Part shown: one piece after another, positions 1 through 18,591 of the stretch
Layout: every line of letters begins with the position of its first letter
How positions within the stretch are numbered: position 1 is the stretch's first letter
IMG/VR virus record: IMGVR_UViG_3300042868_004301
Span: 1-43,244 of that record
Strand: one strand, 5' to 3'
Origin: a virus
Length of the DNA stretch: 43,244 nt
The notes under the pieces: model-generated
The model's database searches: none
Seen by the model: the letters and a program-made list of their open reading frames with translations, nothing else
What the model was told of the DNA's origin: nothing
Made by a program: the position numbers and the translations under genes

Positions 1-1506
1 TAACTCTTGCTTGAGGGCGTAGTGGACGCGGGCCTGTACCGCCGACATCACTTTAAGCTGGCGCTCCAGCAGCGCTAGTGTCGTGCCCACCGGGGCATTG
101 GCCGACATGTCAGACACCTTCATATCCGCCGTGGACGCAAACCTGCGGCCCTCATCAACGATCTGGCCCAGCAACGCCATCAGAACTTGGCTTGGCTCCT
201 TGTATGGCAGGGGTAGGATACTGTCGCGGATGTTGCCGCTTGCCACATCGGCATCACGCCACTCGCCCGGAGCAATCGGAGTGTCATCACCCTTGATGCG
301 CAGGCCACGGGATTTCAAACCACCGGGCAAGTTGGACAACGTACCCGCGTCCACAAGCTGGCGCATGAGGGAGGTGGCCGACTTAGCATAACCACCAATC
401 AGGTGAAATAGGCCAAAGCCGTAGGCCCCAAAGCCGGGGATGTACTGGTAGTGAACAAAGTGCTGGCGCTTGAGCCGGTACTCGTCGTCTTCCAACCAGT
501 TACGGCGGATGGACAGCACATCGTTGGTTCCTTTTATTAGGGTTACTACGTAGGGAAGCATGATTCCCGTAGGCTCGTCCTCGTCGTCCTTGTCCTCGTA
601 CCCTTCCAAATCCAAGTCCACATGGCACTCGTACAGGGTGTACCGGTCGTCGTTCAAATCGTTAAACCCGGTTTCCTTGTCCTTGGCTTTTTGAATGTCC
701 GTGCGATCTTTGGGCGCGTCGGGCAACTCGATGTCCAGATAAAACCCAGCCTGCTGGAGCTTGATGATTTCGTTCTTGGTCTTGCGCATGACATGCGTGA
801 TGCGGTGGCAAGTATCCAAGTCGGTCGTACCGTAGGGCAGGAGGATGTCCTCGGCTGGAATAAACATCGACACCTGACGGCCAAGGCTTGGGTCGTAGTA
901 CACTTTTTTGAACGCCGAACCAGTGGCCGGAAGGCTCCACAGCATGCGCTCATGCTCGGGCCGGAACTCCGCCATCGTTTCAGTTAATTCAAAGTTCATG
1001 TCCTCCTGCACCCGAGCAGCGGCTTCTTTTACCTGTGGAGTGTCCAGTCCGATGATCTTGGTTTTGACCGGCCCAGCGGCAGGAAACGTTTCAGTAATCG
1101 TTTCACTTTGGAACCTTACAACGGCCTCGGTAATCATCGGATGGAACACACCGCAAGCACCTTGCCACGGCTCCGTGCGCTCCTCAATCTGAAGGCCCAG
1201 CAATTTAAGCCCGTCCACGTAGGCTTTCTCCCACTCCTTGCGTGAGGACTTGTCGTTGCCGATGTCCGAGTCCAAATCCCCCGCCATGCTCTGCATGTCG
1301 CCCTCGTTCATATACTCGGCCAAGTTGTCGCTAAAGCCTTCCTCGCCTTCGTCTTCACCGGGCTTTAGGCTAATTTCCAAGCCATCCATACCAATGTTGA
1401 CTTCCTCCGGGTCAATAATCTCAATCTCCAGCGGTGACTCATCTTCTGCAAGCGCGTCAATCCCCATTGGTTGCTGGTATAGGGCTTTGTCTACATTGGT
1501 GGCCAT
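1..1506 (-). CDS. Portal protein (C-terminus cut by window edge)
   Basis: Reading from an ATG at 1506, an uninterrupted frame of 502 codons leaves the window exactly at base 1, so the C-terminus is missing. The product starts MATNVDKALYQQPMG, has a very acidic first 80 residues, then a segment typical of phage portal proteins: LQIEERTEPWQGACGVFHP, a helix with FQSETITETFPAAGPVK, then AFKKVYYDPSLGR and later HFVHYQYIPGFGAYGFG. Portal proteins form the dodecameric ring at the capsid vertex through which DNA is packaged and ejected and to which the terminase docks. It lies 9 bp downstream of the large terminase on the same strand, the standard packaging order. Identification is from these segments, length and position; the exact portal family was not tested. 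Confidence 0.85.
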   Translation of the reverse strand, partial: MATNVDKALYQQPMGIDALAEDESPLEIEIIDPEEVNIGMDGLEISLKPGEDEGEEGFSDNLAEYMNEGDMQSMAGDLDSDIGNDKSSRKEWEKAYVDGLKLLGLQIEERTEPWQGACGVFHPMITEAVVRFQSETITETFPAAGPVKTKIIGLDTPQVKEAAARVQEDMNFELTETMAEFRPEHERMLWSLPATGSAFKKVYYDPSLGRQVSMFIPAEDILLPYGTTDLDTCHRITHVMRKTKNEIIKLQQAGFYLDIELPDAPKDRTDIQKAKDKETGFNDLNDDRYTLYECHVDLDLEGYEDKDDEDEPTGIMLPYVVTLIKGTNDVLSIRRNWLEDDEYRLKRQHFVHYQYIPGFGAYGFGLFHLIGGYAKSATSLMRQLVDAGTLSNLPGGLKSRGLRIKGDDTPIAPGEWRDADVASGNIRDSILPLPYKEPSQVLMALLGQIVDEGRRFASTADMKVSDMSANAPVGTTLALLERQLKVMSAVQARVHYALKQEL

Positions 1507-1515
1507 GATCTGTCC

Positions 1516-3057
1516 TTAGTAATAAGCCGCCGCTCTGCGACGGAACAATTTGGGTTCGTCTTTCTCATCCGTGTCCAACGTGATAAACCCGCCTTGGCGA
1601 AACCGCATCAGCGCTTGGCTGGTTGTGTCCACGTAATCGTCATTATCACCGTTGGGGAAGGCCGCGACCTCCTCAATAACTTCCCGCGCCCAGCGCGTAT
1701 CCGGTGCCCACACTCTACCCGAAGCAAACAAATCGGCAATGGCGTTGACCCGCACGATCTTGTCGTTGCCCCGGCTGGGACTGAACTCCTGCACCGGGAT
1801 GCCCATAACCCGCAGTTCTTGGATCAGCGGTGCCCCAGCGGCTTTTTTCTCCACAATGATGGAGTCGGGCTCCCACTCCTTGTAGTGCTTGAAAGCTATG
1901 GCCTTGAGTTCAGGAAATTCCATCCGGTCTTTGAACGCGTCCAGCAGTATGATTTGCGCTTCGTCGCGCTCATTTTCGTTGTAGAACACGCCCCATGTGG
2001 TGCAGGCTGAATAGTCGGCCCTGCTCTTGGCTTCAAAGGCCGTGTCCCACGACTGGATGATGTACTCACACTTGGGCGGCTCCTCGGGCTCCCATATGCG
2101 CCAGAGCTTGCGGGAAATTATGGCGGCGGCGTTGCTTGTGGGCTGTTGCATGTACTGGGCGTTCCAGTACTGGGGGTCGATGGATGCCTTGGTTGTCTTC
2201 AAGGTGGCCAGCGGCCACTGCTCTGGCCAGAGGGATTTCTCGTCCTCGGTGCCATCGTTCAAGATGGCCGGAAGCTCCACAATCTCCCACGGCAGGGAGT
2301 CCGGGTTGCGGCTTTGGTAGTCAATCAGCCGCCCGGTCAGGTCAAGCTTGCCCCAGCGCGTCATCACAATAATGATTGCCCCTCCGGGCATCAGGCGCTG
2401 CAACGGGCCAGTCTGGAACCAACTCCATGCCGTGTCAAAAGCTAGGCGGCTGTTGGCCTTTACGTCCTGCTCCGAGTGCGGGTCGTCGATCACAAACAAG
2501 TCCGCGCCACGACCGGCAAGCGCACCGCCCACACCCGCAGCGTAGTACTGGCCCCCTGCGGCGGTACTCCATTTACCCGCAGCCTTTTGGTCGTCGGCCA
2601 CCACCGTCTTTGGAAAAATCTCACCGTAGTCTTCGCTGTCGATCAAGTTACGCACCCGGCGACCAAAGTCCTCGGACAGTCCAGCGGTGTGGGTGCCCAT
2701 GATGATTTTCTTCTCGGGGAACTTGCCAAGGAAGTAGGCCGGGAACAAGTAGCTGCTAAATTCTGACTTACCCATACGCGGGGCGATGTTGATGATGACG
2801 CGTAGTTTGCGCCCCTCAATCACGTCTGTGAATATTTTGGCCAGCTTTCTGTGGTGCGGGCCGCTCTTAAACCCCGGATACACCGAGTTGGCAAACCCAA
2901 TCATGTTGTTCTGCGCGGCCAACAGCCGGGCTCGGCGCTCACGTACCTCCAAGTCCTCAAACAACTCCATCTTCTCGGCCAACGTCATGGTTGGCAGAGC
3001 CTTCACAAGTGCGGCAATCTCAGCTTTTGTCAGCGTGGTGATGTTTTCAAGCTGCAT
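1516..3057 (-). CDS. Terminase large subunit (packaging ATPase/nuclease)
   Basis: The 513-aa product is the motor that pumps DNA into the prohead and cuts concatemers. The N-terminal ATPase domain shows a Walker A-like IAPRMGKSEF (residues 91-100), Walker B LFVIDD (187-192) and the coupling motif VMTRW (231-235). The C-terminal RNase H-like nuclease domain shows SWDTA (Asp338), IVEKK (Glu403) and DDYVD (about Asp474) as candidate metal ligands. I start at the ATG at 3057; the frame is open to a TTG at 3108, but the ATG gives the natural N-terminus MQLENITTLTKAE and overlaps the upstream gene by only 11 bp, compatible with translational coupling. No good Shine-Dalgarno is visible at either start. 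The portal gene follows after 9 bp. Confidence 0.95.
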   Translation of the reverse strand: MQLENITTLTKAEIAALVKALPTMTLAEKMELFEDLEVRERRARLLAAQNNMIGFANSVYPGFKSGPHHRKLAKIFTDVIEGRKLRVIINIAPRMGKSEFSSYLFPAYFLGKFPEKKIIMGTHTAGLSEDFGRRVRNLIDSEDYGEIFPKTVVADDQKAAGKWSTAAGGQYYAAGVGGALAGRGADLFVIDDPHSEQDVKANSRLAFDTAWSWFQTGPLQRLMPGGAIIIVMTRWGKLDLTGRLIDYQSRNPDSLPWEIVELPAILNDGTEDEKSLWPEQWPLATLKTTKASIDPQYWNAQYMQQPTSNAAAIISRKLWRIWEPEEPPKCEYIIQSWDTAFEAKSRADYSACTTWGVFYNENERDEAQIILLDAFKDRMEFPELKAIAFKHYKEWEPDSIIVEKKAAGAPLIQELRVMGIPVQEFSPSRGNDKIVRVNAIADLFASGRVWAPDTRWAREVIEEVAAFPNGDNDDYVDTTSQALMRFRQGGFITLDTDEKDEPKLFRRRAAAYY

Positions 3058-3670
3058 CTGGGGCTGGCGTTGGGTTGTCCGTAATGATTCTGGCCGTGGG
3101 GATGTCAATATCTATGTCAGTGACCTCAACGGCGTCCACCACCCCCATGAACTTGGCCAACTTGTCCTTGATGCGCTGGTCAAGCTCGTTGTCGGTGAGC
3201 GCTTCCTTCTTGATTTCAATCTTTTCGGTGAACAACCCCACCTCGGTGACTTTACCAAGCGCTGTAAGAGCCTTGAGCCGGATACTGGCGTTGGGGTTCT
3301 TGGTTTCCTCCACCAACTGGGCCACACAGTAGCCACGCAGTTGCTGCGCTTGGTGAATAAACTCCCAGTCGTAGGCTGTCAGCATGCTTACTAAGTGCTG
3401 GACAGCGGCGGGAGCCTTAATGTTGCTCAGGGAGCTTTTTGTCAGTTCGGTTGGCTGGCCGGTAATGATGTTGGTAAATGCCGCACGGGCAAAAGTGGCT
3501 TGCGCTTGATCCACTACCTCGTCTTCGTCCACTGCGCCCAGACTTTTGAGCCAGTTGGCCGTCTCCACCTTGGCGTCCACGACCTGATTCACCCCCGCTT
3601 TGTTCAGCGGTGTGTAGGGTTCATCGAAAAGCTCGATGTCCGGCTCGTATTCAATTAAATGTTCCAACAT
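3047..3670 (-). CDS. Putative terminase small subunit
   Basis: A 207-aa, largely helical, acidic protein (start MLEHLIEYEPDIELF). The segment NPNASIRLKALTALGKVTEVGLFTEK (about residues 127-150; key part IRLKALTALGKV) resembles DNA-recognition proteins coded just before large terminases in podovirus-like phages. The tail is hydrophilic, Asp/Pro-rich. It is the first gene of the leftward late unit, follows a good promoter, and overlaps the large terminase by 11 bp. The small-terminase assignment rests mainly on position and this weak resemblance; it could be another packaging-associated protein. Start: ATG at 3670 with AAGGGC about 8 nt upstream. Confidence 0.55.
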   Translation of the reverse strand: MLEHLIEYEPDIELFDEPYTPLNKAGVNQVVDAKVETANWLKSLGAVDEDEVVDQAQATFARAAFTNIITGQPTELTKSSLSNIKAPAAVQHLVSMLTAYDWEFIHQAQQLRGYCVAQLVEETKNPNASIRLKALTALGKVTEVGLFTEKIEIKKEALTDNELDQRIKDKLAKFMGVVDAVEVTDIDIDIPTARIITDNPTPAPDAA

Positions 3671-3699
3671 GCGTAAGCCCTTGCAGCCTCGTTGGGGGA

Positions 3700-3729
3700 A
3701 GTATATACTCAGTTCCGGTGATTGTGCAA
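3700..3729 (-). promoter_or_regulatory. Promoter for the leftward packaging genes
   Basis: On the minus strand TTGCAC (3729-3724) and TATACT (3705-3700) are separated by 18 bp, a reasonable sigma70-type -35/-10 pair, placing transcription about 35 bp upstream of the putative small terminase start codon. It is the best promoter-like sequence reading into the packaging genes. Inferred from consensus only. Confidence 0.55.
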
Positions 3730-3778
3730 TTTTTTGTGCATTTGCTTCTCCCTGAGTGGGCCTGACGGCTCATTTTTA

Positions 3779-3808
3779 AACCCTTGGTTTGCGCCGAGGG
3801 TTTTTTTT
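3779..3808 (+). terminator. Rho-independent terminator, plus strand
   Basis: Stem AACCCTTGG (3779-3787) / CCGAGGGTT (3794-3802) with one G-T wobble, a 6-nt loop, and eight T from 3801 to 3808. The orientation is rightward although no rightward gene lies upstream within the window, so it would end either a short RNA made from 3671-3780 or transcription coming from the left. In the reverse direction no U-tract of quality follows the stem. Confidence 0.7.
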
Positions 3809-4046
3809 ATGGGTATTTGTCAATAGTTAGACAAGGGTTTACCCTAATTTTTGTAGTAGTTTTTGGGGGTGACGTTGTTTTTCGGAGACGGGGGGTGTTC
3901 TGGGATTTTTAAAATTTTGATTTGCGGGTGCTAAACACTGTTATGTCGGAGCGGCGGCGGTGACGGCCTAATAGGGCTTCCGGGGGTACGGTGGGGTCGC
4001 CAAACCCCCGTTTTCGGGGTCAATTTGCCCTCAATCCGGTGCCAAC

Positions 4047-4076
4047 TTGGCTATCAAACCATGCCATCCGGATAAT
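4047..4076 (+). promoter_or_regulatory. Candidate early promoter
   Basis: TTGGCT (4047-4052) and GATAAT (4071-4076) with an 18-bp spacer match sigma70 elements at 4/6 and 5/6 positions, and lie about 60 bp before the first rightward gene at 4135. Consensus match only. Confidence 0.4.
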
Positions 4077-4134
4077 GGATATTGTCAGTGGGGCTTTCCC
4101 CTGGCACAACTTAATCCAATTCAAGGAAAACATC

Positions 4135-4509
4135 ATGACTAATAAAGCCCTAGCATTTACCGCACTCAATACCTTTGCCGATTCTCGCACTGCCTTAATC
4201 GAGGGCATGCAAGACGCGGGCTATACAACACTGGAAGAGTGCCGCCCTATCGTTATCGAGTGGGCTTGCGAGAAAACCGGCGCGGCATTCAATGTCAGTG
4301 CCAAAGGTAAGGTAATGCTCGATAGCACACACGCCAAGTATCAGGGCGCGAAAACCACGGTACGCGATATTATGTTGATGTTGCAAGGCACGACGCGCCG
4401 CGCTGAAAGCGCACGAAAAGAGGCTGACCCTTTGGCCGTACTTGCTGCGAAGCTCGCCAAGTTAAGCGCCGCGGATAGGCTCACGGTATTGGCTCTCGCG
4501 GGCATGTAA
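4135..4509 (+). CDS. Unknown early protein, 124 aa
   Basis: First gene of the rightward early region. The ATG at 4135 follows CAAGGAAAAC and gives MTNKALAFTALNTFADSRT; upstream in-frame starts lack a ribosome site. The protein is Ala/Lys/Arg-rich and mostly helical, with a central stretch ending TTVRDIMLMLQGTTRRAES that looks amphipathic, and a C-terminus LAKLSAADRLTVLALAGM. I do not recognise a family. Position right after the early promoter suggests an early host-takeover or regulatory role, which is inference only. Confidence 0.8.
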   Translation: MTNKALAFTALNTFADSRTALIEGMQDAGYTTLEECRPIVIEWACEKTGAAFNVSAKGKVMLDSTHAKYQGAKTTVRDIMLMLQGTTRRAESARKEADPLAVLAAKLAKLSAADRLTVLALAGM

Positions 4510-4618
4510 TGCAGTTTTACCGTGATTGTTTTTTCGTGTGTGCCCCGGATGCGGGGCTACCATGTTGTTCAATACGCTGTCTATCAAAAACCCAAAGTCA
4601 ATAGGCAAAAACTATTCT

Positions 4619-4649
4619 CTATCGACTTCACTGCTTCGATAGCTTTTTT
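4619..4649 (+). terminator. Intrinsic terminator/attenuator after first early gene
   Basis: Perfect 7-bp stem CTATCGA (4619-4625) / TCGATAG (4636-4642) with a 10-nt loop, then C and six T (4644-4649). It sits only 17 bp before the start codon of the next gene, whose AGGAG site lies just after the T-run, so it may attenuate rather than end transcription. A second hairpin, GCCCCG-GATG-CGGGGC (4542-4557), lies just upstream without a T-run. Confidence 0.65.
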
Positions 4650-4665
4650 CAATTAGGAGAATCCA

Positions 4666-4806
4666 ATGACACAAAACCAATTTGCCGCCCTCTGCGCCCA
4701 CTACGGCATAGCGCCAAGCCTAGCCCTAGAAAACCCCGCCATTGTCCAAGCACTGCGTGCCCGTGACAGCGTAGCGGTGGAGCGCATACTGGCAAACGAA
4801 TTCTAA
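4666..4806 (+). CDS. Small unknown protein, 46 aa
   Basis: ATG at 4666 preceded by TTAGGAGAATCCA, a strong ribosome site used almost identically before the gene at 5139. The product MTQNQFAALCAHYGIAPSL... ends VERILANEF. It contains an ALENPAIVQALRARDSVAVERIL helix-rich segment, compatible with a small helical DNA- or protein-binding peptide. No family recognised. It ends 5 bp before the tandem repeat array. Confidence 0.65.
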   Translation: MTQNQFAALCAHYGIAPSLALENPAIVQALRARDSVAVERILANEF

Positions 4807-4811
4807 GGGCA

Positions 4812-4919
4812 CGCCCAGTCTGCTTTATTACCGCCCAGTCTGCTTTATTACCGCCCAGTCTGCTTTATTACCGCCCAGTCTGCTTTATTACCGCCCAGTC
4901 TACTTTATTACCGCCCAGT
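4812..4919 (+). repeat. 20-bp tandem repeat array (iteron-like), 5.4 copies
   Basis: Five consecutive copies of the unit CGCCCAGTCTGCTTTATTAC start at 4812, 4832, 4852, 4872 and 4892, followed by eight bases of a sixth. Four copies are identical; the fifth has one G to A change (4902). There are no spacers. The 20-bp period puts each copy on nearly the same face of the helix. It is non-coding, lying between two small genes, and is followed by a palindrome (4938-4952). Likely a protein-binding array such as replication-origin iterons or a regulatory operator cluster. Confidence 0.9.
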
Positions 4920-4926
4920 ATTTTTA

Positions 4927-4952
4927 ACCCGCTTTGCGGGTCACAGTGACCC
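4927..4952 (+). promoter_or_regulatory. Palindromic operator overlapping a hairpin
   Basis: GGGTCACAGTGACCC (4938-4952) is a 15-bp palindrome with a central A. Its left arm also closes an alternative hairpin ACCCGC-TTT-GCGGGT (4927-4941), so in RNA the two stems exclude each other. It lies 22 bp upstream of the ATG at 4975. The same palindrome recurs at 6028-6042 and 6897-6913. Confidence 0.6.
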
Positions 4953-4974
4953 CGTAACCCTTGGAGACTTAACC

Positions 4975-5127
4975 ATGCACACCAATACCACCTTACCCAT
5001 TCAATACGATAACCATGCAAGCGGCACTGTCTGCGTACTGCGTGAAGTGCATGGCGAACTGGTAGCCCTAGCTATACCCCAAAACCAGTACCGGGAATGG
5101 GTTGGTTGCTTTTCAATTATCAATTAG
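4975..5127 (+). CDS. Small unknown protein, 50 aa
   Basis: ATG at 4975 with CTTGGAGACTT upstream. Product starts MHTNTTLPIQYDNHASG and continues TVCVLREVHGELVALAIP, ending with a short Trp/Phe-rich tail; it looks like a single small beta-rich domain. Its stop codon TAG (5125-5127) overlaps the Shine-Dalgarno TAGGAG of the next gene, so the two are probably translated together. No family recognised. Confidence 0.65.
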   Translation: MHTNTTLPIQYDNHASGTVCVLREVHGELVALAIPQNQYREWVGCFSIIN

Positions 5128-5138
5128 GAGAATCCACC

Positions 5139-5402
5139 ATGTACGCCGAACTAATCAAGGCAAGCCACTACTACGGCAGGCGCAGCCCCGGATGGGTTGC
5201 AGTTATCCACGGGCAACCGTGGCACTTCAGCGGGCGCACCGGAAAGAAAGACGCGCAAGCCGCATTAGGTAGCCCCCATCACTCACACCACGTCATTGCC
5301 TACTACCGCCACCGCCTGCGCATCCTGCGCGATGAAATGGCCTTGCGTGCTGCCGAATACGAACGCCAAAAAAGAGCCACAGTGACCCGTTTTTCAAAGT
5401 AG
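5139..5402 (+). CDS. Unknown basic protein, 87 aa
   Basis: ATG at 5139 is chosen because TTAGGAGAATCCACC precedes it; the frame is open upstream to 5097 without a ribosome site. The product MYAELIKASHYYGRRSPGWV... is rich in His, Arg and Tyr, with a helical, Arg-rich C-terminal half (YRHRLRILRDEMALRAAEY). It may bind nucleic acid, but no family is recognised. The end of the gene carries a degenerate copy of the palindromic operator (5374-5388), and the stop codon falls inside the left arm of an inverted repeat (5400-5408). Confidence 0.7.
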   Translation: MYAELIKASHYYGRRSPGWVAVIHGQPWHFSGRTGKKDAQAALGSPHHSHHVIAYYRHRLRILRDEMALRAAEYERQKRATVTRFSK

Positions 5403-5788
5403 GTGCGGTAATTGTCCCAAAAAGTCGAAAAAATAGCTAGGATATATTCCCGCACCTAACCAATAAACACGACATTAATTAAGCGTTATAAATCAACGAC
5501 TTAGCGAATCACCGACCGCTCTATATATATATAAATCTATTTATTAAGAGTTATATATATACTCTCATACACAAGCCACAAACTCCCTTGACTTTTGTCT
5601 GTTCCTTTTGGGTAAATTCTTTGGCCTTTGTAGTAATTGGTTTTAGATATACACATGTGCCAGTCACCACCTAAACCCTTGATTCATATAACAAATTCAA
5701 TGTCGCCGTTTTTGACTAGTCGCGGAAGAATACCCTACCTATTGGATAGTGATACAATTGCCGCACCAACTTTGAAGGAAAAACCACC
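5403..5788. other. AT-rich intergenic region with inverted repeats
   Basis: No convincing gene in 386 bp. Visible features: 9-bp inverted repeat arms TAGGTGCGG (5400-5408) and CCGCACCTA (5450-5458); an AT-rich stretch about 5520-5570 with TATATATATATAA and a facing TTATATATATA; several near-consensus promoter pieces (TTGACT near 5590 and 5712); and an extended -10 element just before the next gene. Together with the iteron-like array 600 bp upstream this is the most origin-like segment of the window, by inference. Confidence 0.6.
5750..5758 (+). promoter_or_regulatory. Extended -10 promoter candidate
   Basis: TGATACAAT: a TG dinucleotide one base before TACAAT (5/6 match to the -10 consensus), 31 bp upstream of the ATG at 5789. 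There is no good -35, as allowed for extended -10 promoters. Confidence 0.4.
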
Positions 5789-6508
5789 ATGCCTTACGTT
5801 TACCAGCACCTAATGAAGCTCACGCCGAACGAGTTGCACAACCGCTTGAGTAAAAGAAACCTAGCGCCTGAAGTGCGCGAAGATATGAAGGCCCTAATTA
5901 CCGCACAGAAAGCGTCGTTCAAATCCATGCGCTCCAAGACCATCAAGGTTCACGCTGAGTGGCGACCACTGCTGCAAGGCCTGCGCATGGAGCGTGAAAG
6001 CGTGCGCTCAAGCCGCGCCTACAAAAAGGGTCACCGTGACCCGAATCTAATTACCGCACTAGAAGGCTACTCTATGGTGCTTGACCGGCTGCATGGTGAG
6101 TTTGAATTACACAAGCGAGAGCTAAGAACACCTGCGGTAATCGCAAGGGAAAGGAATCTACAGAACAAAGGGATTCACTGGACGGACTGGGTAAAGGATA
6201 AATTCAAAGAGCGCATCCGCCTACTGTTCGACGCAGTACCCCACCAAGGCACCAAAGGCAAGACCCCATTCCCACGCCGAACTGACCCCAAATCAAACGC
6301 CAAACTCAAAGCGCGGCTGCATGCACGCACGGTAAAAGAACACGGCATCGCCCAGCAGAACCATCAACTAAACCCCACCGAAAGGAGCAAAGCCAAGCTA
6401 GACAAGATGAACGAAGCACTCAAACGCATCGACCAACTACAACCTACTGACCCCGTGCCACGCACGTACTCAGGACTATTTTTAACAACCGAAGGAGAAA
6501 GCAAATGA
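5789..6508 (+). CDS. Unknown highly basic protein, 239 aa
   Basis: ATG at 5789 follows TTTGAAGGAAAAACC. The protein is strongly basic and helix-rich (MPYVYQHLMKLTPNELHNR at the N-terminus; a Lys/Arg-rich C-terminal half with TPFPRRTDPKSNAKLKARL near residue 160). It has no transmembrane segment or cysteine cluster. The composition suggests nucleic-acid binding, but no family is recognised. The coding sequence contains one copy of the GGGTCACNGTGACCC palindrome (6028-6042). The stop overlaps the next start by 4 bp (ATGA). Confidence 0.8.
   Translation: MPYVYQHLMKLTPNELHNRLSKRNLAPEVREDMKALITAQKASFKSMRSKTIKVHAEWRPLLQGLRMERESVRSSRAYKKGHRDPNLITALEGYSMVLDRLHGEFELHKRELRTPAVIARERNLQNKGIHWTDWVKDKFKERIRLLFDAVPHQGTKGKTPFPRRTDPKSNAKLKARLHARTVKEHGIAQQNHQLNPTERSKAKLDKMNEALKRIDQLQPTDPVPRTYSGLFLTTEGESK
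6028..6042 (+). promoter_or_regulatory. Palindromic operator copy inside a gene
   Basis: GGGTCACCGTGACCC, a 15-bp palindrome with central C, identical in both arms to the sites at 4938 and 6898 but placed within the coding sequence of the 239-aa gene. It may act as a roadblock or auxiliary looping site, or be coincidental coding sequence. Confidence 0.45.
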
Positions 6509-6888
6509 AAACAAATGAACTAACAGGTGCCGCCCTTGATTGGGCGGTGGCTAAGTGTGAAGGTGGCACAGGCCTTTGGCACGATACGGTAGCTACGTAT
6601 TGGGTCAAGCTAGATGGAAAAGACCGTGCCCTTTCCAAAGGGTGGGCGCAGTCTTACTTGCCCTCAACCGACTGGTCACAAGGCGGGCCGATTATTGAGA
6701 GGGAGAAGCTGTGCCTTGACATTGATTCGGCGGGAGTGTGGCTTGCATGGACTAAGCAAAACTATGACGATGAGCCGCGCCATATGGTAAGCGGCCCCAC
6801 ACCACTAATCGCAGCTATGCGCTGCTACGTTGCCAGCAAGCTGGGTGATAACGTAGAGATACCAACCGAACTAGGGGGCACCAACTGA
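6505..6888 (+). CDS. NinX-like DUF2591 protein, copy 1
   Basis: 127 aa. It matches the DUF2591/NinX family of phage proteins: N-terminal ELTGAALDWAVAKCEG, central STDWSQGGPIIERE and C-terminal GPTPLIAAMRCYVASKLGD. Members are common in phage early regions but have no established biochemical function. The start codon overlaps the preceding stop (ATGA) and has GGAGAAAGCA upstream. A second copy lies at 9515-9850, with near-identical DNA around the start codon, pointing to duplication. Confidence 0.85.
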   Translation: MKTNELTGAALDWAVAKCEGGTGLWHDTVATYWVKLDGKDRALSKGWAQSYLPSTDWSQGGPIIEREKLCLDIDSAGVWLAWTKQNYDDEPRHMVSGPTPLIAAMRCYVASKLGDNVEIPTELGGTN

Positions 6889-6896
6889 AACAAAAG

Positions 6897-6913
6897 CGGG
6901 TCACTGTGACCCG
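6897..6913 (+). promoter_or_regulatory. Palindromic operator, 17 bp perfect
   Basis: CGGGTCACTGTGACCCG, the best copy of the recurring palindrome, lies in the short non-coding gap between the DUF2591 gene and the 468-aa gene, 61 bp before the next start codon. The symmetry suggests a dimeric DNA-binding protein. Confidence 0.6.
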
Positions 6914-6928
6914 AAAATTAAACGGTTC

Positions 6929-6950
6929 GCAGCGTGCCGTCTCACGCTGC
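6929..6950 (+). promoter_or_regulatory. Strong hairpin in leader of 468-aa gene
   Basis: Perfect 8-bp stem GCAGCGTG (6929-6936) / CACGCTGC (6943-6950) with loop CCGTCT. No U-tract follows, so it is not a standard terminator. It sits 23 bp before the ATG at 6974 and just upstream of AGGAGAAG; RNA stabilisation or processing is possible. Confidence 0.5.
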
Positions 6951-6973
6951 ACTAGTAATTAGGAGAAGTAATC

Positions 6974-8380
6974 ATGCGCAAAATGACGCAACAAGAGTTA
7001 GTTAGCTGGCATAAAAACCGCCCACGGCGTACGCTTGAAGCAATGGACTGCTTGCGACGGGTACTTAGGGATAGTCGCTCGTGGCACTTTCGGGAGCAAG
7101 TCAATTCGAACTGGTCGATGCATCCGGCCATCGAGCACGCTGTGTTTGAGGCAGACCCTGACAACTGGCATCAGCTAGTATTGGAGTGGCCGCACATGTC
7201 AGACAAAGGTAGGCATGAGATAGCGTATACCCGTGACGACAAGTACGGCGAGGCGGACAGGCAAATCACAGTGGGCATCGCCAAGTATCTGACGCGCCAC
7301 TTCCCCACCATACCAAGCGACACGATACGCGACATCGCTGCCAAGTATGCGCAGGGTAGCTGTAAGTTTGTACACACCACCATCGAGATGCTTGACGTTA
7401 TTGAGAATGGCCCCACATCATGCATGGGTAAGGGTGCAGGTAATTTTCACGGCGGGCGGCATCCGTACGAGGCCTATGCGCCGGAGTTTGGCTGGCATAT
7501 GGCGGTGTTTATGGAGAATGGCGCATACACAGGCCGTGCGCTGTGCAACGAGAAGTACAAGTACTTTGTGCGCTCGTATCGCAGCGGTACAGGTGAGAGC
7601 TACTCATGCGCTGATGAGAGGCTTGAAGCGTGGCTGCAAGACCAAGGGTATGAGAAAACAAACTCATGGGAAGGGCACAAACTCAAACGGGTAGTAGCGG
7701 CCAATAGCTGCGGGTTCCTTGCCCCGTATATCGACGGCCGTGCGCAGCATGTGTGCGAAGTTCACGATGGTTTTGAGATTACCTGTGATGAAGACGACGC
7801 CGAGTGGGAGTTCACCAATACCGATGGCACTGCCGATGACGTTGAACACGGTGACAACTGCTCAGACTGCGGCGACAGAGTGCGTGATGGTGATGGGTAC
7901 TGGACAGGCGGGCAGGAGGAGACCCTTGTCTGTGAGCATTGCATCAACAACCACTATACGTATGTGTATGGCCGCGGCAGTAACAGGTACTACCTACGCG
8001 ACAACGAGGGCGTCATCCTTGTTGGTGACGAGTACTACGATGGGGACTACCTATCGGACAACAACATCGTGGAGCTTGAGAACGGCGACCATGTGCATGC
8101 AGACGATGCGGTATTCATTGACCGCTTGGACGAGCACCACCCCATAGATGACTGCGTGCACTGTGAGCACAGCGGCGAGTACGAGTTACAGCGTGACTGT
8201 GAGCAGCTATCCGATGGCGAGTGGGCACACGAGGACGATGTGTGGTGCTGTGAGCATAGCGGCGAGTATTACCTAGACGATGACGCTGACAGTAGGTACG
8301 AGACAGAGTGCGGCAAGACAGTACACATTGACTACGCCGACCATTACGCCCCCGAGGAAACAACTTTAACACTGGAGTAA
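6974..8380 (+). CDS. Acidic Cys/His-rich protein, 468 aa, unknown
   Basis: ATG at 6974 after TTAGGAGAAGTAATC. The N-terminal ~270 residues form a mixed helical domain (VSWHKNRPRRTLEAMDCLRR near residues 11-30; TSCMGKGAGNFHGGRHPYEAY about 148-168). The C-terminal ~190 residues are extremely acidic and carry zinc-ribbon-like pairs: CSDCGDRV (about 296) with CEHCINNH (about 321), then DDCVHCEHSGEYEL (about 394) and WCCEHSGEYYLDDD (about 424). The CEHSGEY segment is repeated. This suggests several zinc- or metal-binding modules on an acidic scaffold, perhaps a DNA mimic or protein-binding platform. No family recognised; function unknown. Confidence 0.85.
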   Translation: MRKMTQQELVSWHKNRPRRTLEAMDCLRRVLRDSRSWHFREQVNSNWSMHPAIEHAVFEADPDNWHQLVLEWPHMSDKGRHEIAYTRDDKYGEADRQITVGIAKYLTRHFPTIPSDTIRDIAAKYAQGSCKFVHTTIEMLDVIENGPTSCMGKGAGNFHGGRHPYEAYAPEFGWHMAVFMENGAYTGRALCNEKYKYFVRSYRSGTGESYSCADERLEAWLQDQGYEKTNSWEGHKLKRVVAANSCGFLAPYIDGRAQHVCEVHDGFEITCDEDDAEWEFTNTDGTADDVEHGDNCSDCGDRVRDGDGYWTGGQEETLVCEHCINNHYTYVYGRGSNRYYLRDNEGVILVGDEYYDGDYLSDNNIVELENGDHVHADDAVFIDRLDEHHPIDDCVHCEHSGEYELQRDCEQLSDGEWAHEDDVWCCEHSGEYYLDDDADSRYETECGKTVHIDYADHYAPEETTLTLE

Positions 8381-8383
8381 ATC

Positions 8384-9502
8384 ATGACTAAACAAAACCA
8401 AACCATCCTGCACAAGACCCTGAGCCGTGCGCTATCCCTTGCCCGTCCCCATGCATCCGTCACTACGATGGAGTTCACGACATGGCTATTCAAAAACCTG
8501 CCTGCGCACTTGATGGGCGCGGCTTGGCTGGACGGGGCTAGTAACCTGCACATCGACGCACGCACACAAGACCACCACCGCACGCTATTCGTGGCGCACG
8601 TTGACACGGTACACCGCACACCCGGCCCCAACAAAATCAGGAAAACACAGGCCAAATGGTATGCCGATGGCGCTGCGCTAGGTGCCGATGATGGTGTGGG
8701 CTGTGCGTTACTCGTGCACTTGATACATGCTGGCGTGCCTGCGTACTACGTGTTTACTCAGGGCGAGGAATGCGGGGGCATCGGTGCCAAGCATCTTGCC
8801 GACCAGCACAAAGACCTGCTGGCCCAGTTCGACAGGGCTATTGCATTCGACAGGCGCGGTACTGACAGCGTTATCTCACACCAAGGCTGGGGCCGGTGCT
8901 GCTCGGATGCGTTTGCACAAGGGCTGGCCGATGCGTTCAATGCGACCAACATCAACCTGATGTATGCGCCAGATGATACGGGTGTCTATACGGACACGGC
9001 AGAATTCACCGACATCATTGCCGAATGTACGAACGTCTCGTGCGGGTATTACTTCGAGCACAGCGACAAAGAAGAACTAGATATGCTGCACTTCGAGCAG
9101 CTAGGCGCAGCCGTTGTGTTGGTTGATTGGGATGGCCTGCCCACCGAGCGTGACCCCAAGGCGGTGGAGTACAAAGACGAGAGCTACGACACGTACATGA
9201 GCAAGTGGGGTGCGATGCCTGATGTGTGGAATGACAAAGATGACTACCTTGCAGGGCTTAACCTAAGCTACGAGGAGGAGTTTCTGTACGAGGCGCTGCT
9301 TGATGCTGAAGTAGGGTTCAAGACGCACCTTGTCACGCTGATGGCCGAGTCGGTGTACCCCGAGGAACCCAAGCAAGCCAAGAAGTTTATAAACAGGGAG
9401 CGCATAACACCGGAAGCGGTGCGTGCTGCAATAGATATGCTCGGCCAAGCCGACACGGATACGATTCTTGCAACATTGTTTGACACGGCATACGCCGAAT
9501 AA
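8384..9502 (+). CDS. M20/M28-type zinc metallopeptidase
   Basis: 372 aa. The pattern fits co-catalytic dizinc hydrolases of the M20/M28/M42 group: FVAHVDTVH (His72, Asp74), ALGADDGVGCALL (bridging Asp102), TQGEECGGIGA (Glu128 general base, Glu129 ligand), AFDRRG (Asp156) and FEHSDKEE (His226). All expected ligands are present, so an active exopeptidase or amidohydrolase is likely; the substrate is unknown. The residues after about 260 are an extra acidic helical extension. It starts three bases after the 468-aa gene and is followed by a DUF2591 copy, so it is embedded in the early operon rather than with lysis genes. There is no signal peptide. Confidence 0.85.
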   Translation: MTKQNQTILHKTLSRALSLARPHASVTTMEFTTWLFKNLPAHLMGAAWLDGASNLHIDARTQDHHRTLFVAHVDTVHRTPGPNKIRKTQAKWYADGAALGADDGVGCALLVHLIHAGVPAYYVFTQGEECGGIGAKHLADQHKDLLAQFDRAIAFDRRGTDSVISHQGWGRCCSDAFAQGLADAFNATNINLMYAPDDTGVYTDTAEFTDIIAECTNVSCGYYFEHSDKEELDMLHFEQLGAAVVLVDWDGLPTERDPKAVEYKDESYDTYMSKWGAMPDVWNDKDDYLAGLNLSYEEEFLYEALLDAEVGFKTHLVTLMAESVYPEEPKQAKKFINRERITPEAVRAAIDMLGQADTDTILATLFDTAYAE

Positions 9503-9514
9503 AGGAAAAAGCAA

Positions 9515-9850
9515 ATGAAAACAAATGAACTAATAGACGATGCCCTTAATTGGGCGGTGGCGAAGTGTCTGCCGACACCCAAAGACGCCTTAGGGTTACT
9601 TGACCTAGACGTTTACAACGGGTTTAACCCATCAACCAACTGGGCACAAGGCGGGCCGATTATTGAGCGCGAAGGAATCACGGTTATTCATATCGGCGAG
9701 GATTGGGAAGATACGTGGCAAGCCAGAAAAGGCGACGGGCATTGGCAGGGTTATTTAAGTGGGGGGCAAACACCCCTTATCGCAGCAATGCGATGCTACG
9801 TAGCCAGCACGCTAGGTGTCGAGGTAGATGTACCGGAGGAACTGACATGA
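9515..9850 (+). CDS. NinX-like DUF2591 protein, copy 2
   Basis: 111 aa, paralogue of the protein at 6505: ELIDDALNWAVAKC, then STNWAQGGPIIERE and QTPLIAAMRCYVASTLGV. The 22 bases over the start codon are shared with copy 1, and the central GGCGGGCCGATTATTGAG is also identical, implying duplication within this lineage. The linker between the blocks differs. Function unestablished for the family. Confidence 0.85.
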   Translation: MKTNELIDDALNWAVAKCLPTPKDALGLLDLDVYNGFNPSTNWAQGGPIIEREGITVIHIGEDWEDTWQARKGDGHWQGYLSGGQTPLIAAMRCYVASTLGVEVDVPEELT

Positions 9851-11664: not shown

Positions 11665-11876
11665 AAGACGAGATTGCAGGTACGATTTACGCCAAAGACT
11701 ACACCGACTGGATGGTAAAGACCGGCGGCTTTGCAAGGGACATGACCTTGCGTGACCACTTTGCTGCGCTTGCTATGCAAGAAATTTATCAACGTGTAGA
11801 AACAGGTGGCTTTGAACGTGTAGCAAAACTGTCTTACGAATTGGCAGACGCAATGCTCAAGGAGCGCAACAAATGA
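11661..11876 (+). CDS. Unknown small protein, 71 aa
   Basis: Four-base overlaps on both sides and AAGGAGAACTGA upstream. Product MKDEIAGTIYAKDYTDWMV... ends YELADAMLKERNK. A single helical domain, function unknown. Immediately precedes and is coupled to RtcB. Confidence 0.7.
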   Translation: MKDEIAGTIYAKDYTDWMVKTGGFARDMTLRDHFAALAMQEIYQRVETGGFERVAKLSYELADAMLKERNK

Positions 11877-13063
11877 AACAAGTAATCCAAGACGAGGGCG
11901 CACGCCCTATCAAAATCTGGACGGACGATGTGGAAGCATCGGCCCTAACCCAGCTAAAGAACCTTGCACGCCTGCCGTTTATCAACAGCAATGGGGTGGC
12001 CTGCATGCCGGACGTACACGCGGGTATTGGCTCCACTGTGGGCACTGTAATCGCCACGGAGAGGGCAGTCATCCCCGCCGCTGTGGGTGTTGATATTGGG
12101 TGCGGCATGAACGCGGTGCGCCTGTCCCTCAAGGCCAGTGATTTGCCTGACAACTTGAAGCCTTTGCGCGACGAGATTGAGCGGCGCGTACCGCTGGGTG
12201 TAGGTGGGGCGCACGATGACAGCACGGACATCGGGGAGGTTACTTCCATGCTGGACAAGACAGTTATTGAGCCGCTGTACAACGGCGACTACGACAAGTT
12301 CCACGCCAAGGCGGCAAGTCAGATGGGCTCACTAGGCTCGGGCAACCACTTCATTGAGGTGTGCATCGACGAGAACCAAGACGTATGGGTGATGCTGCAC
12401 TCGGGCTCACGCGGTATCGGCAACATGATTGGTACGCACTACATCGCCAAGGCCAAGCGCCAGATGGAGCAGTTCTTTATCACGCTGCCGGACGACAACC
12501 TTGCGTACTTCCCTGAGAACACCGAGGACTTTGATGACTACATGTATGCCGTGGGTTGGGCGCAGAACTATGCGTTTGAAAACCGCCGCCGCATGATGTC
12601 TGAAGTGCTGGAGGCCATGAAGCTGCGCATCGACAAACCGTTCACCATCACACAGGAAGCAATCAACTGCCACCACAACTATGTCGAAAGAGAAAATCAC
12701 TTTGGAAGAAATATGTGGGTTACTCGGAAGGGTGCCATCCGCGCACGCGATGGTGATCTTGGCATCATCCCCGGAAGTATGGGTCAGCGCAGCTACATCG
12801 TCCGAGGCAAGGGAGATCTTCAATCTTACTGCTCTTGCTCACATGGCGCAGGTCGCAGCATGTCGCGTGCCGAAGCGAAGAGAAGGTTTAGCCTCAGTGA
12901 TCTGGTGGCACAAACAGAAGGCGTCGAGTGCCGCAAAGATGCAGGAGTCATCGACGAAATCCCAGCCAGCTACAAAGACATCGACCAAGTGATGGCAAAC
13001 CAAACCGACCTTGTTGAAGTCGTCCACCAACTAAAGCAGGTACTCTGCGTGAAAGGAAACTAA
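11873..13063 (+). CDS. rtcB: RtcB-type RNA ligase
   Basis: 396 aa. RtcB joins RNA 2',3'-cyclic-phosphate or 3'-phosphate ends to 5'-OH ends using GTP and Mn2+. Signature blocks are intact: MPDVHAGIGSTVGT (45-58), GVDIGCGM with Asp74/Cys77, GSGNHFIEV (His159), LHSGSRG (His176), NCHHNYVERE (His267/268), GIIPGSMGQRSYIVRG and SHGAGRSMSR, in which His324 is the residue guanylated in the family. The length is near that of compact phage and bacterial RtcB. No RtcA or archease gene is nearby. In a phage the likely task is repair of host tRNAs broken by defence ribonucleases, an inference. Start overlaps the previous stop (ATGA) with AAGGAGCGCAAC upstream. Confidence 0.97.
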   Translation: MKQVIQDEGARPIKIWTDDVEASALTQLKNLARLPFINSNGVACMPDVHAGIGSTVGTVIATERAVIPAAVGVDIGCGMNAVRLSLKASDLPDNLKPLRDEIERRVPLGVGGAHDDSTDIGEVTSMLDKTVIEPLYNGDYDKFHAKAASQMGSLGSGNHFIEVCIDENQDVWVMLHSGSRGIGNMIGTHYIAKAKRQMEQFFITLPDDNLAYFPENTEDFDDYMYAVGWAQNYAFENRRRMMSEVLEAMKLRIDKPFTITQEAINCHHNYVERENHFGRNMWVTRKGAIRARDGDLGIIPGSMGQRSYIVRGKGDLQSYCSCSHGAGRSMSRAEAKRRFSLSDLVAQTEGVECRKDAGVIDEIPASYKDIDQVMANQTDLVEVVHQLKQVLCVKGN

Positions 13064-16293: not shown

Positions 16294-16573
16294 TGAACCA
16301 ATAACCGAAGAAAAATTTAAAGAAATAATTGATTCGCTGGACAAAGAAGAGCGTGATTATTTCCGCGAATGTGTTGAAGAAATGGTGCGCTGCTTTATGC
16401 CGAACACTGAAACACTGGGCGTGTTTGTTACCGCTACGCGCACTGGGTATGGCGCAAAAGTCTACGCAATGAACGCTGGCTCGACCGAGATAAAAATCAT
16501 GTTGGAGTCTGTGCTGTTCAGTAAATTTGAAGACGAAGCCGCAATGAAAGTACCCAAGGAGAAATTGAATTGA
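16286..16573 (+). CDS. Unknown protein, 95 aa
   Basis: MNDEPITEEKFKEIIDSL and an acidic helix (DYFRECVEEMVRCFMP) precede a beta-rich half (LGVFVTATRTGYGAKVYAM). Overlaps VRR-NUC by 8 bp, and its AAGGAG-containing end provides the ribosome site for the polymerase N-terminal gene. Function unknown; position suggests replication. Confidence 0.7.
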   Translation: MNDEPITEEKFKEIIDSLDKEERDYFRECVEEMVRCFMPNTETLGVFVTATRTGYGAKVYAMNAGSTEIKIMLESVLFSKFEDEAAMKVPKEKLN

Positions 16574-17883
16574 GCGCTCCCTACGACCGCATACTGACCA
16601 TTGACTTTGAAACGTACTGGGACAGCAAAAGCTACACGCTGTCCAAGATGACAACTGAGGAGTACATACGTGACGACAAGTTCTTGGCTTTCGGAGCCTG
16701 CATACACGAGTTTGGGGATGACAGACCCACACAGTGGTATCGAGGAGGTGACGAGCTTCATAGAGTCCTATCAACATACGACTGGGGACGAACCGCAGTC
16801 TTGGCACATAACGCCCAATTCGATGTCTCCATACTCTCTTGGCGGTATAACGTCAGACCCGCGTTTATCTTTGACACGCTGTCAATGGGGCGGGCTCTTC
16901 GAGGAGTTGAGGTTGGCAACTCTCTCGCCAAACTGGCCTCCGATTATTCCCTCCCCCCAAAGGGTACTGCTGTTTACTCCACTGACGGACTCAAAGCAAT
17001 ATCACAGGAAGTTGAGAAAGAACTGGCCGACTATTGCGCGCATGACGTATATCTGTGTGAAGAAATCTTCAAGCGCCTCGTTGCGGGCTACCCTGCTTCG
17101 GAACTACGCCTCATCGACATGACGCTAAAGATGTACACGCAACCTGTCTTGCAGTTGGACAAGCTCATGCTGGTCAATGCGTTGGAAGAAGAAAAGGAAA
17201 AGCGCGAAGAGCTACTGACTAGGCTGGGTGTGACTGATGCTGCGTTGGCAAGCAATGGGCAGTTTGCAGAACTGTTGCGCACCCTTGGCGTGGAGCCGCC
17301 GACCAAGAAGAAAAAGCCCACGGCAAAAACCCCTCACCCCAAGGGTGTCAACTTTGCATTCGCCAAGACGGACGCCATGTTCCAAGCCATGCTCAACGGG
17401 AGCAACGAGGATGTGGCACTGCTGTGCGAAGCTAGGCTCAAGGTCAAGTCCACCACCGAGCGCACACGGGCGCAGCGATTCTTGGAGATTTCCCAGCGCG
17501 GCCCGTTGCCTGTGCCGCTTAGTTATTACGGAGCCTTGTCGGGGCGGTGGACGGCTTGTTTAGTTGCAGATACAGAGGTTATTGTGTATGATCGGCACAA
17601 CGGCCAGTGCGTTAAACGTATCGTTGATGTACTGCCAGACGACCTTGTGTGGGACGGTATTGAGTTTGTTCAGCACGAGGGTGTTCAGTTCAGTGGGTAT
17701 AAAGAAGTAATGACTTATGACGGAATCACCGGCACTCCAGACCACAAGGTTTTTATCGACGACAACACAACCGTCAGCCTTCTCGATGCGCAGCAGAGAG
17801 GCCAGAGCATCATGGATGCAGCAGAACCCGACAGTGGGGCTGTGGCGGCTGCTAGGGCACGACTTAAAAGGCTCCGATGGTAA
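16570..17883 (+). CDS. DNA polymerase (family A), N-terminal part fused to N-intein
   Basis: 437 aa from a TTG start (AAGGAGAAATTGAA upstream, TTGA overlap with the previous stop). Residues 1-329 are the N-extein. It has a DEDD 3'-5' exonuclease domain with LTIDFETYWD (Asp12, Glu14), LAHNAQFDVS (Asp85) and LADYCAHDVYL (Tyr155, Asp159), then the start of the polymerase domain, ending at SYYGALSGRWTA just before motif A. Residues 330-437 are the N-terminal half of an intein beginning with Cys330 (CLVADTEV) and containing TGTPDHKVF. The ORF then stops; the rest of the polymerase is coded by the gene at 18514. Not a pseudogene: both halves carry matching intein blocks. Confidence 0.93.
   Translation: MSAPYDRILTIDFETYWDSKSYTLSKMTTEEYIRDDKFLAFGACIHEFGDDRPTQWYRGGDELHRVLSTYDWGRTAVLAHNAQFDVSILSWRYNVRPAFIFDTLSMGRALRGVEVGNSLAKLASDYSLPPKGTAVYSTDGLKAISQEVEKELADYCAHDVYLCEEIFKRLVAGYPASELRLIDMTLKMYTQPVLQLDKLMLVNALEEEKEKREELLTRLGVTDAALASNGQFAELLRTLGVEPPTKKKKPTAKTPHPKGVNFAFAKTDAMFQAMLNGSNEDVALLCEARLKVKSTTERTRAQRFLEISQRGPLPVPLSYYGALSGRWTACLVADTEVIVYDRHNGQCVKRIVDVLPDDLVWDGIEFVQHEGVQFSGYKEVMTYDGITGTPDHKVFIDDNTTVSLLDAQQRGQSIMDAAEPDSGAVAAARARLKRLRW
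17557..17883 (+). other. N-terminal split intein (IntN, 108 aa)
   Basis: Starts at the Cys codon 17557. Block A is CLVADTEVIVYDR; VWDGIEFVQHEGVQF follows; block B is DGITGTPDHKVF with the conserved T-x2-H. The ~40 residues after block B (DDNTTVSLLDAQQRGQSIM and following) match the end of a normal N-intein, and the last ~23 are coded in the overlap with the endonuclease gene. The piece is predicted to pair with the 26-residue C-intein at 18514 and splice the polymerase halves in trans. Confidence 0.9.
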
Positions 17884-18520
17884 GTGGCGCGTAGCATGTG
17901 TCTGCCGCTGCGGCAGGTATGCGGAACCGCGTTACAAGGACTTACGGGCAGGCGGGTCAAGAGGGTGTATGTCGTGCGTAACTAGCGACCGTATGCGTAT
18001 AGAGATTGCGCAGGCACCGGACAAGTACCCTCAGACAAAGCGCCGCAACCCACCGCGAGTACGGGTGCAGGTTACCCCCTACAAAGACCATGAGCTACGT
18101 GTCGTCCGCATCTTGCAGGGGGCAAAAGCTCGTTGTACAAACAAGCTCGAACCCGCATACAAAAATTACGGCGGAAGGGGCATCAAGTTTTGTTTTGCAT
18201 CGGTGCGTGAAGGAGTCTTGTGGGTCATGGAAAACTTGGGCGCTAGGCCAACGGACGCACACAGCATAGACCGTATCGACAACGAGCGCGGCTATGAGCC
18301 GGGGAACCTACGCTGGGCCACTCGTGCTGAACAGGCACGCAACAAGCGCAGCTACACCGGGCACGTTTACGGGAAGCGCCTCAAGCGGCTATTGGCACTA
18401 CGTCAAGACTACACATATGAAGGGTTGCGTAAATACGTGATAGCAGGCTTCAAGGACGAAGAGATCATAAACATGCCAAAGCCCAAGGGCGGCAGACCAA
18501 AAAAGGAGAAGAAATGTTAG
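17816..18520 (+). CDS. Free-standing homing-endonuclease-like gene inside split intein
   Basis: About 234 aa from ATG 17816 (MQQNPTVGLWRLLGHDLKG); the frame is open to 17717 but upstream sequence is antisense-like filler shared with the intein. The N-terminal zinc-knuckle-like segment is KWRVACVCRCGRYAEPRYK ... GCMSC. The middle has GAKARCTNK and YGGRGIKF, and the C-terminal block is HSIDRIDNERGYEPGNLRWAT followed by EQARNK. This architecture is seen in phage-borne HNH/Vsr-like homing endonucleases. It ends in a basic tail (KPKGGRPKKEKKC). The start overlaps the N-intein by 68 bp and the end overlaps the C-intein start by 7 bp. Likely the mobility factor that cleaves intein-less polA alleles; nuclease residues are not proven. 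Confidence 0.8.
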   Translation: MQQNPTVGLWRLLGHDLKGSDGKWRVACVCRCGRYAEPRYKDLRAGGSRGCMSCVTSDRMRIEIAQAPDKYPQTKRRNPPRVRVQVTPYKDHELRVVRILQGAKARCTNKLEPAYKNYGGRGIKFCFASVREGVLWVMENLGARPTDAHSIDRIDNERGYEPGNLRWATRAEQARNKRSYTGHVYGKRLKRLLALRQDYTYEGLRKYVIAGFKDEEIINMPKPKGGRPKKEKKC

Positions 18521-18591
18521 TACCTGTATACGACATCATGAACTGCGGCCCGCGCTCACGTTTTGTTGCCAACGGAAAAGTTGTGCATAAC
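18514..18591 (+). other. C-terminal split intein (IntC, 26 aa)
   Basis: MLVPVYDIMNCGPRSR then FVANGKVVHN, followed by Ser. Block F (VYDIMN..RF.ANG) and block G (VVHN|S) are intact. The piece starts only four residues before block F, shorter than the ~35 residues of typical natural C-inteins. Confidence 0.88.

Follow-up and report, generated by a model that had tools for sequence, protein, structure and literature searches.

A tandem array of 20-bp units is found at the beginning of the early region of an uncultured phage, and the question arises whether it forms part of a replication origin, a multi-site operator or neither. The stretch analysed here, a virus record called the window below, spans 43,244 bases. 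Its terminase shares 45-54% identity with those of Pelagibacter HTVC023P-group phages, DSL-LC04 and Planktothrix Pag-Yong1-type phages, and no DNA-level match to window positions 3000-9000 was found among named phages. A second record of the same phage, IMGVR_UViG_3300044675_001342 (55,987 bp), was 100% identical over window positions 10346-43244 and 1-4103, and the two could be joined into a circle of 62,229 bp. The terminase genes run leftward, up to 3670, and the early genes run rightward from 4135. The array is located between a 46-aa ORF and a 50-aa ORF (4975-5127). No plus-strand gene crosses it. No tRNA genes were found.

Tandem Repeats Finder described the array with a period of 20, 5.4 copies, 98% matches, no indels and a score of 209, the highest of the 25 rows obtained for the window. 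Four copies are identical, the fifth differs by one base (CTG to CTA) and the sixth is a stub of 8 bases. The initial annotation had reported five near-identical copies without spacers, and this was confirmed; its term "perfect" was slightly too strong, given the changed base in the fifth copy. The placement of all copies on one helix face holds only approximately, since a period of 20 bp, with 10.5 bp to the helical turn, shifts each copy by about -34 degrees and the fifth copy by -137 degrees relative to the first. A CRISPR-like array was ruled out, since the copies abut and no unique spacers separate them. No further copies of the unit with up to four mismatches were detected in the window, and the backwards control pattern gave 0 matches. 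The coordinates of the array and of the features discussed below are collected in Table 1.

Table 1. Location in the window of the array, the related sites, the palindromes and the genes under discussion
Feature	Position	Strand	Remark
First early gene, 124 aa	4135..4509	+	mosaic family covarying with the palindrome; candidate palindrome-binding regulator
46-aa ORF directly 5' of the array	4666..4806	+	absent in L006
20-bp tandem array, 5.4 copies	4812..4919	+	unit CGCCCAGTCTGCTTTATTAC, with ATTACCGC in each junction; Tandem Repeats Finder
Perfect palindrome GGGTCACAGTGACCC	4938..4952		18 bp past the array
GGGTCACAGTGACCC with 2 mismatches	5374..5388		end of 87-aa gene; sisters have their own palindrome near the same place
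Left arm of 23-bp inverted repeat (91%)	5393..5415	+	brackets the AT-rich block
ATTACCGC site	5405..5412	-	-71 from core; also in L086, L088 and L101
AT-rich non-coding block	5446..5561	+	about 80-83% identical in sister species
Degenerate site ATTCCCGC	5446..5453	+	-31 from core; related site at -31 in each sister species
Right arm of 23-bp inverted repeat	5754..5776	+	holds degenerate site ATTGCCGC (5757-5764)
239-aa gene, family conserved across the group	5789..6508	+	candidate initiator or partner
ATTACCGC site in 239-aa gene (+108)	5897..5904	+	same place in L086
GGGTCACAGTGACCC, exact	6028..6042		variable linker of 239-aa gene; L086 and L007 have their own palindrome in the same linker
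ATTACCGC site in 239-aa gene (+261)	6050..6057	+	L086 +279, homologous codons
ATTACCGC site in 239-aa gene	6134..6141	-	absent in L086
GGGTCACAGTGACCC, exact	6898..6912		intergenic, after gene 6505-6888

The distribution of the array among relatives was evaluated. A contig from another metagenome (L012), 100% identical to the window over 5,763 bases, also carries 5.4 copies, so the array is not an assembly slip. In L006, 97-99% identical in long pieces, 3.3 copies are present and the array borders a 240-bp deletion or insertion. Thirteen sequences share the conserved core (see below); three of them, all from one species, have the array, and the sister phages lack it. In IMG/VR, the exact three-copy, 20-bp spacing of the word ATTACCGC was restricted to contigs from the species of the window. 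Copy number and period, whose retention in related phages the initial annotation had suggested testing, are thus not kept by relatives. As the copy number varies within the species and the array is missing in the sisters, it is young and variable; its absence from ten of the 13 sequences means that it is not needed for whatever the conserved block does.

The scan covered 58 upstream stretches (51 terminase-relative loci of more than 600 bases and seven others), many of them too short to reach the place of the array. It revealed other arrays: a different 20-bp array of 2.2-3.2 copies in L043, L044 and L045, and a 38-bp array in L034. The former, a perfect array of GATACCCTGAGAGCCGAGCC, is located upstream of the terminase small subunit, and its half-word GAGCCGAG recurs nearby, a parallel to the array of the window. 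When the spacing of three ATTACCGC words was relaxed, at least 120 stretches matched. Of the 114 loci inspected, 110 had two spacings that were each divisible by 3, and 20/20 spacing was seen in none; the matches were therefore discounted as probable coding repeats.

What the array shares with its surroundings is a single word. When the unit was read as 20 circular 8-mers, ATTACCGC was the only one found again (four times) between -600 and +500 around the start of the 239-aa gene of the window. On the circle 12 copies were counted: five in the array, four at the sites listed in Table 1 and three elsewhere (30387, 43420 and 44326). Outside the array, the word is concentrated at 5405-6141, surrounding the AT-rich block and continuing a short way downstream of it; with the array excluded, four sites fall in 5300-6300 and three in all the rest of the circle (Poisson 2e-7, post hoc). 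L086, which lacks the array and is about 81% identical in DNA sequence, has six sites, five of them within 1 kb at the same place (Poisson 2e-8, likewise post hoc). As controls, the letters of the unit were shuffled 20,000 times, and 30 of these trials matched the observed total; so did 43 of 19,101 other 20-mers from the window.

The sites at -71 and -31 from the core, the one at about +269 and those inside the 239-aa gene recur between species. At -31 the variant is ATTCCCGC in the window, ATTACCGA in L007, ATTACCGC in L105 and CTGCCGC in L086 and L101, and a second, inverted site precedes the core by 71-72 bp in the window, L086, L088 and L101. The two in-gene sites common to the window and L086 occupy homologous codons (I-T-A-Q and I-T-A-L), so their agreement is partly due to shared descent. 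Fewer sites are present in L087 and L007-L011, the L007-type phages showing ATTACCG at few places. L089-L096 lack the site pattern near the gene, with one ATTACCG in L091 and none in the others.

The AT-rich stretch that had been placed some 600 bp beyond the array is present, 527-642 bp past it. Within this block lie a 29-bp core (5477-5505) and, at 5522-5561, an AT-rich inverted repeat; the identity of the block to the window is 83% in L007-L011 and 80% in L087 and L099. The conserved element resembles an origin or else a major control region. In L087 and L099 a degenerate 21-bp tandem repeat of 3.3 copies, with TATAAT-like boxes, was observed directly upstream of the 239-aa gene.

The product of the 239-aa gene was predicted to be all-helical (pLDDT 86). 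It showed no relatives in Pfam, PHROG, plasmids, bacterial genomes or the PDB, and one weak, partial match in phages (E 0.1); two viral models of no known function were below E 0.001. Foldseek against the PDB gave no match at E ≤ 0.001 for this model or for that of the first early gene, and neither family nor fold searches linked the 239-aa protein to an initiator. A likeness to BAR domains (best Z 8.0, rmsd 6.1-6.6, 116-120 residues aligned) was too weak to use. That this protein binds ATTACCGC is a guess.

The initial annotation had interpreted the locus as a replication origin with iterons and a DNA unwinding element, to be checked by GC skew among other means, or else as a multi-site operator. 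Cumulative GC skew along the circle reached its minimum at position 6490, no more than about 1 kb from the block. In the relatives, the distance of the minimum from the core was -1.3, +1.4, +4.2, -1.9 and +1.8 kb; some of these loci are truncated on their right side. Because the skew depends on the strand of the genes and its minimum is scattered among relatives, it was rejected as proof of an origin. The origin interpretation itself is supported in part: ATTACCGC is shared with a conserved AT-rich block 0.5-1.3 kb away, in the same way as in the sister without the array, and the conserved parts are this word and the block, not the array. Features of known origins found here are direct repeats of about 17-22 bp (period 20, 5.4 copies) and an AT-rich element near the repeats. 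The distance of 0.5 kb between array and block is unusual for an iteron origin, and of the repeats only the word is shared with related phages.

Our preferred reading, to which we give a probability of roughly 40%, is that the array is a lineage-specific amplification of putative ATTACCGC binding sites tied to the block and serving replication control. It is plausible that the block is a replication origin. Ancestral sites of the ATTACCGC type would flank and follow the block, upstream of and into the 239-aa gene. A phage-coded initiator would bind the conserved sites around the block, and the AT-rich block would then melt. The array would offer five extra docking sites 0.5 kb upstream, which may raise the local occupancy of the initiator or titrate it, like auxiliary iterons. 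We infer the binding of a protein to ATTACCGC, the origin in the block and its modulation by the array.

In the auxiliary iteron arrays of plasmids, such as incA of P1, further iterons located beyond the minimal origin adjust how much initiator is available. By analogy the array might act as such a set; unlike the case of incA-type plasmids, no plasmid-type Rep was found among the proteins scanned. In lambdoid phages, according to PMC7466680, iteron number varies from four in lambda to six in Stx phages, where the two extra iterons, although bound weakly, are required for effective replication. The same report describes direct repeats of about 20 bp, a neighbouring AT-rich tract and sites in an early gene, as seen in the window. 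In lambda, however, the iterons adjoin the AT tract, whereas the array of the window stands 0.5 kb off and the conserved sites are scattered, some of them in inverted orientation; no O-like protein was identified. For SPP1, PMC6316719 places one set of repeats (gp38 sites) within the initiator gene and a second set elsewhere, as oriL and oriR; direct repeats with an AT-rich element, one set being in a gene, are common to both phages. The SPP1 sets lie about 13 kb apart, each with an AT-rich element, whereas the window has one AT-rich block and a nearby, species-specific array. For the phage group itself, the literature searches brought up nothing on the array and block or on the palindromes, and a term search of the HTVC023P-type paper (PMC9599517) returned no passage on an origin or on intergenic repeats.

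Second in our ranking, not far behind and less likely than not, is a multi-site operator, in which ATTACCGC would be a regulator site, the block an early promoter or control region, and the array a device that blocks or delays transcription from 4975 on. The degenerate site ATTGCCGC overlaps, by eye, a -10-like TACAAT (5753-5758) just before the 239-aa gene, a box missing from the promoter scan, and promoter-like sites near the array were at chance level (3, against a shuffle mean of 2.7). Sites within transcribed genes would be expected of elements that block elongation; a promoter, on the other hand, would hardly require an AT-rich block with a highly conserved core of 29 bp and an inverted repeat that is itself rich in AT. 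The region is rich in another operator-like element, the palindromes, and the multi-site operator idea fits these well. Unlike them, the array word is independent of the type of the first early gene, being present both in the window (type A) and in L086 (type B).

Third, and less probable again, is a neutral minisatellite, in which slippage multiplied a stretch that happened to contain ATTACCGC and has no function. The differing copy number in near-identical phages, the sister species without the array, the indel at its border in L006 and the unrelated 20- and 38-bp arrays in the same region of other relatives all agree with slippage. Against it, the unit and the conserved sites have a common word beyond chance, and the sole base change inside the array falls outside ATTACCGC. 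An RNA element or decoy made from transcribed repeats is very improbable, for although gene order probably places the array inside an early transcript, its folding was no better than that of shuffles on either strand (z +0.3 and +2.2), as expected if the sites act as DNA, and Rfam gave no match anywhere in the window.

The palindromes reported to follow the array were found, and they constitute a more surprising result than the array itself. The palindrome word just after the array is GGGTCACNGTGACCC, and its counterpart in L086 is GGGGACANNNTGTCCCC. Besides the copies in Table 1, three looser matches to GGGTCACAGTGACCC, with three mismatches, occur elsewhere on the circle. L086 and L007 have GGGGACA..TGTCCCC at the same places instead, including the linker of the 239-aa gene, and L087 has a GGGTCAG-type palindrome. 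Among 63 related loci with an early region of more than 1500 bases, redundant contigs included, 51 contain a palindrome repeated at least three times with arms of at least 6 bp, often of different sequence. The same test gave none in 630 Markov shuffles and none in the remainder of the circle, divided into 14 tiles. At least 12 palindrome types are in use.

The type of palindrome follows the first early gene. This gene, which has no Pfam match, appears by eye to be built from exchangeable N- and C-terminal types. For the covariation test, palindrome classes were labelled by hand in 38 of the 63 loci, the remainder having no repeated palindrome or being seemingly redundant; L064 and L027 were left out for faulty extraction of the first gene, leaving 36, and L091 represented L092. 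Allowing for terminase kinship, palindrome identity followed first-gene similarity with a partial r of 0.437 in the 36 loci, 0.482 in 24 non-redundant loci and 0.610 in the 16 loci with the 239-aa gene, a value reached in 0 of 5000 permutations in each case. The 239-aa gene, taken as control, added nothing to palindrome identity given the first gene (-0.028). Two pairs, compared before L064 and L027 were removed, illustrate the pattern: the window and L086 have a terminase similarity of 0.88, a first-gene similarity of 0.08 and different palindromes, whereas the window and L093 have values of 0.60 and 0.56 and the same palindrome. Counterexamples were also found. L039 and L092 have first genes that are 69% identical and differ in palindrome (GGGTCA and GGAGCA), while L018 and L086 share GGGACA despite a first-gene similarity of just 0.10. 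L020, of type A with a single GGGACA palindrome, was outside the test set.

From these sequence comparisons, palindrome and first gene look like a diversifying pair of operator and regulator. The simplest reading is that the candidate first-gene product would bind the palindrome as a dimer, with an RNA hairpin as a conceivable alternative target. The predicted fold of this product had a pLDDT of 84; its best structural match (Z 4.1) and several KH-domain rows (Z 2.1-3.4) were too weak to use.

The nearest precedent for such covariation is that of the Cluster A mycobacteriophage stoperators, for which PMC6550527 states that motif distance follows repressor distance. As with stoperators, the repeated sites are private to each phage. 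Stoperators, however, are asymmetric and mostly in one orientation, whereas the sites of this group are palindromes, and the candidate regulator, in contrast to the stoperator repressor, has no Pfam match and exchanges its domains. The SAS/ESAS elements of Cluster K mycobacteriophages are likewise short repeats between genes, some with inverted repeats, as described in PMC3203893. The same paper gives SAS as 13-bp asymmetric elements tied to start codons, whereas the palindromes of the window also occur inside a gene.

Taken together, the early region could be under two layers of control, a tentative proposal that we consider about as probable as the preferred reading of the array. One layer would be an origin element with an all-helical initiator candidate and species-specific auxiliary iterons. 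The other would consist of diversifying palindrome operators with a mosaic first-gene regulator, co-changing across the early region and even inside a gene. If the origin layer is right, it would provide a testable origin and an initiator candidate for a large uncultured phage group with a terminase related to that of the HTVC023P pelagiphages. If the palindrome layer is right, it would offer a natural series of matched regulator/operator pairs, with at least 12 palindrome types and a specificity switched often between close relatives, and a good system for how a DNA-binding protein and its scattered sites co-change.

Other observations were made along the window. Two copies of one small gene family (phrog_4389; 6505-6888 and 9515-9850) flank a 468-aa gene and a peptidase gene, and in L006 the stretch with these copies and genes is rearranged. 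An RtcB-family RNA ligase gene is encoded in the early region at 11873-13063; its best NCBIfam match was an intein-containing RtcB model, with a score under the cut-off. At 16570-19593 a DNA polymerase A gene lies in two parts, apparently divided by what we take, from intein motifs, to be a split intein. The N part ends with CLVADTEV...GTPDHKVF and a tail, the C part starts with ...CGPRSRFVANGKVVHNS, and a 267-aa ORF lies in between. In Pfam, DNA_pol_A_exo1 was slightly under the cut-off in the first polymerase part, and DNA_pol_A was over the cut-off in the last.
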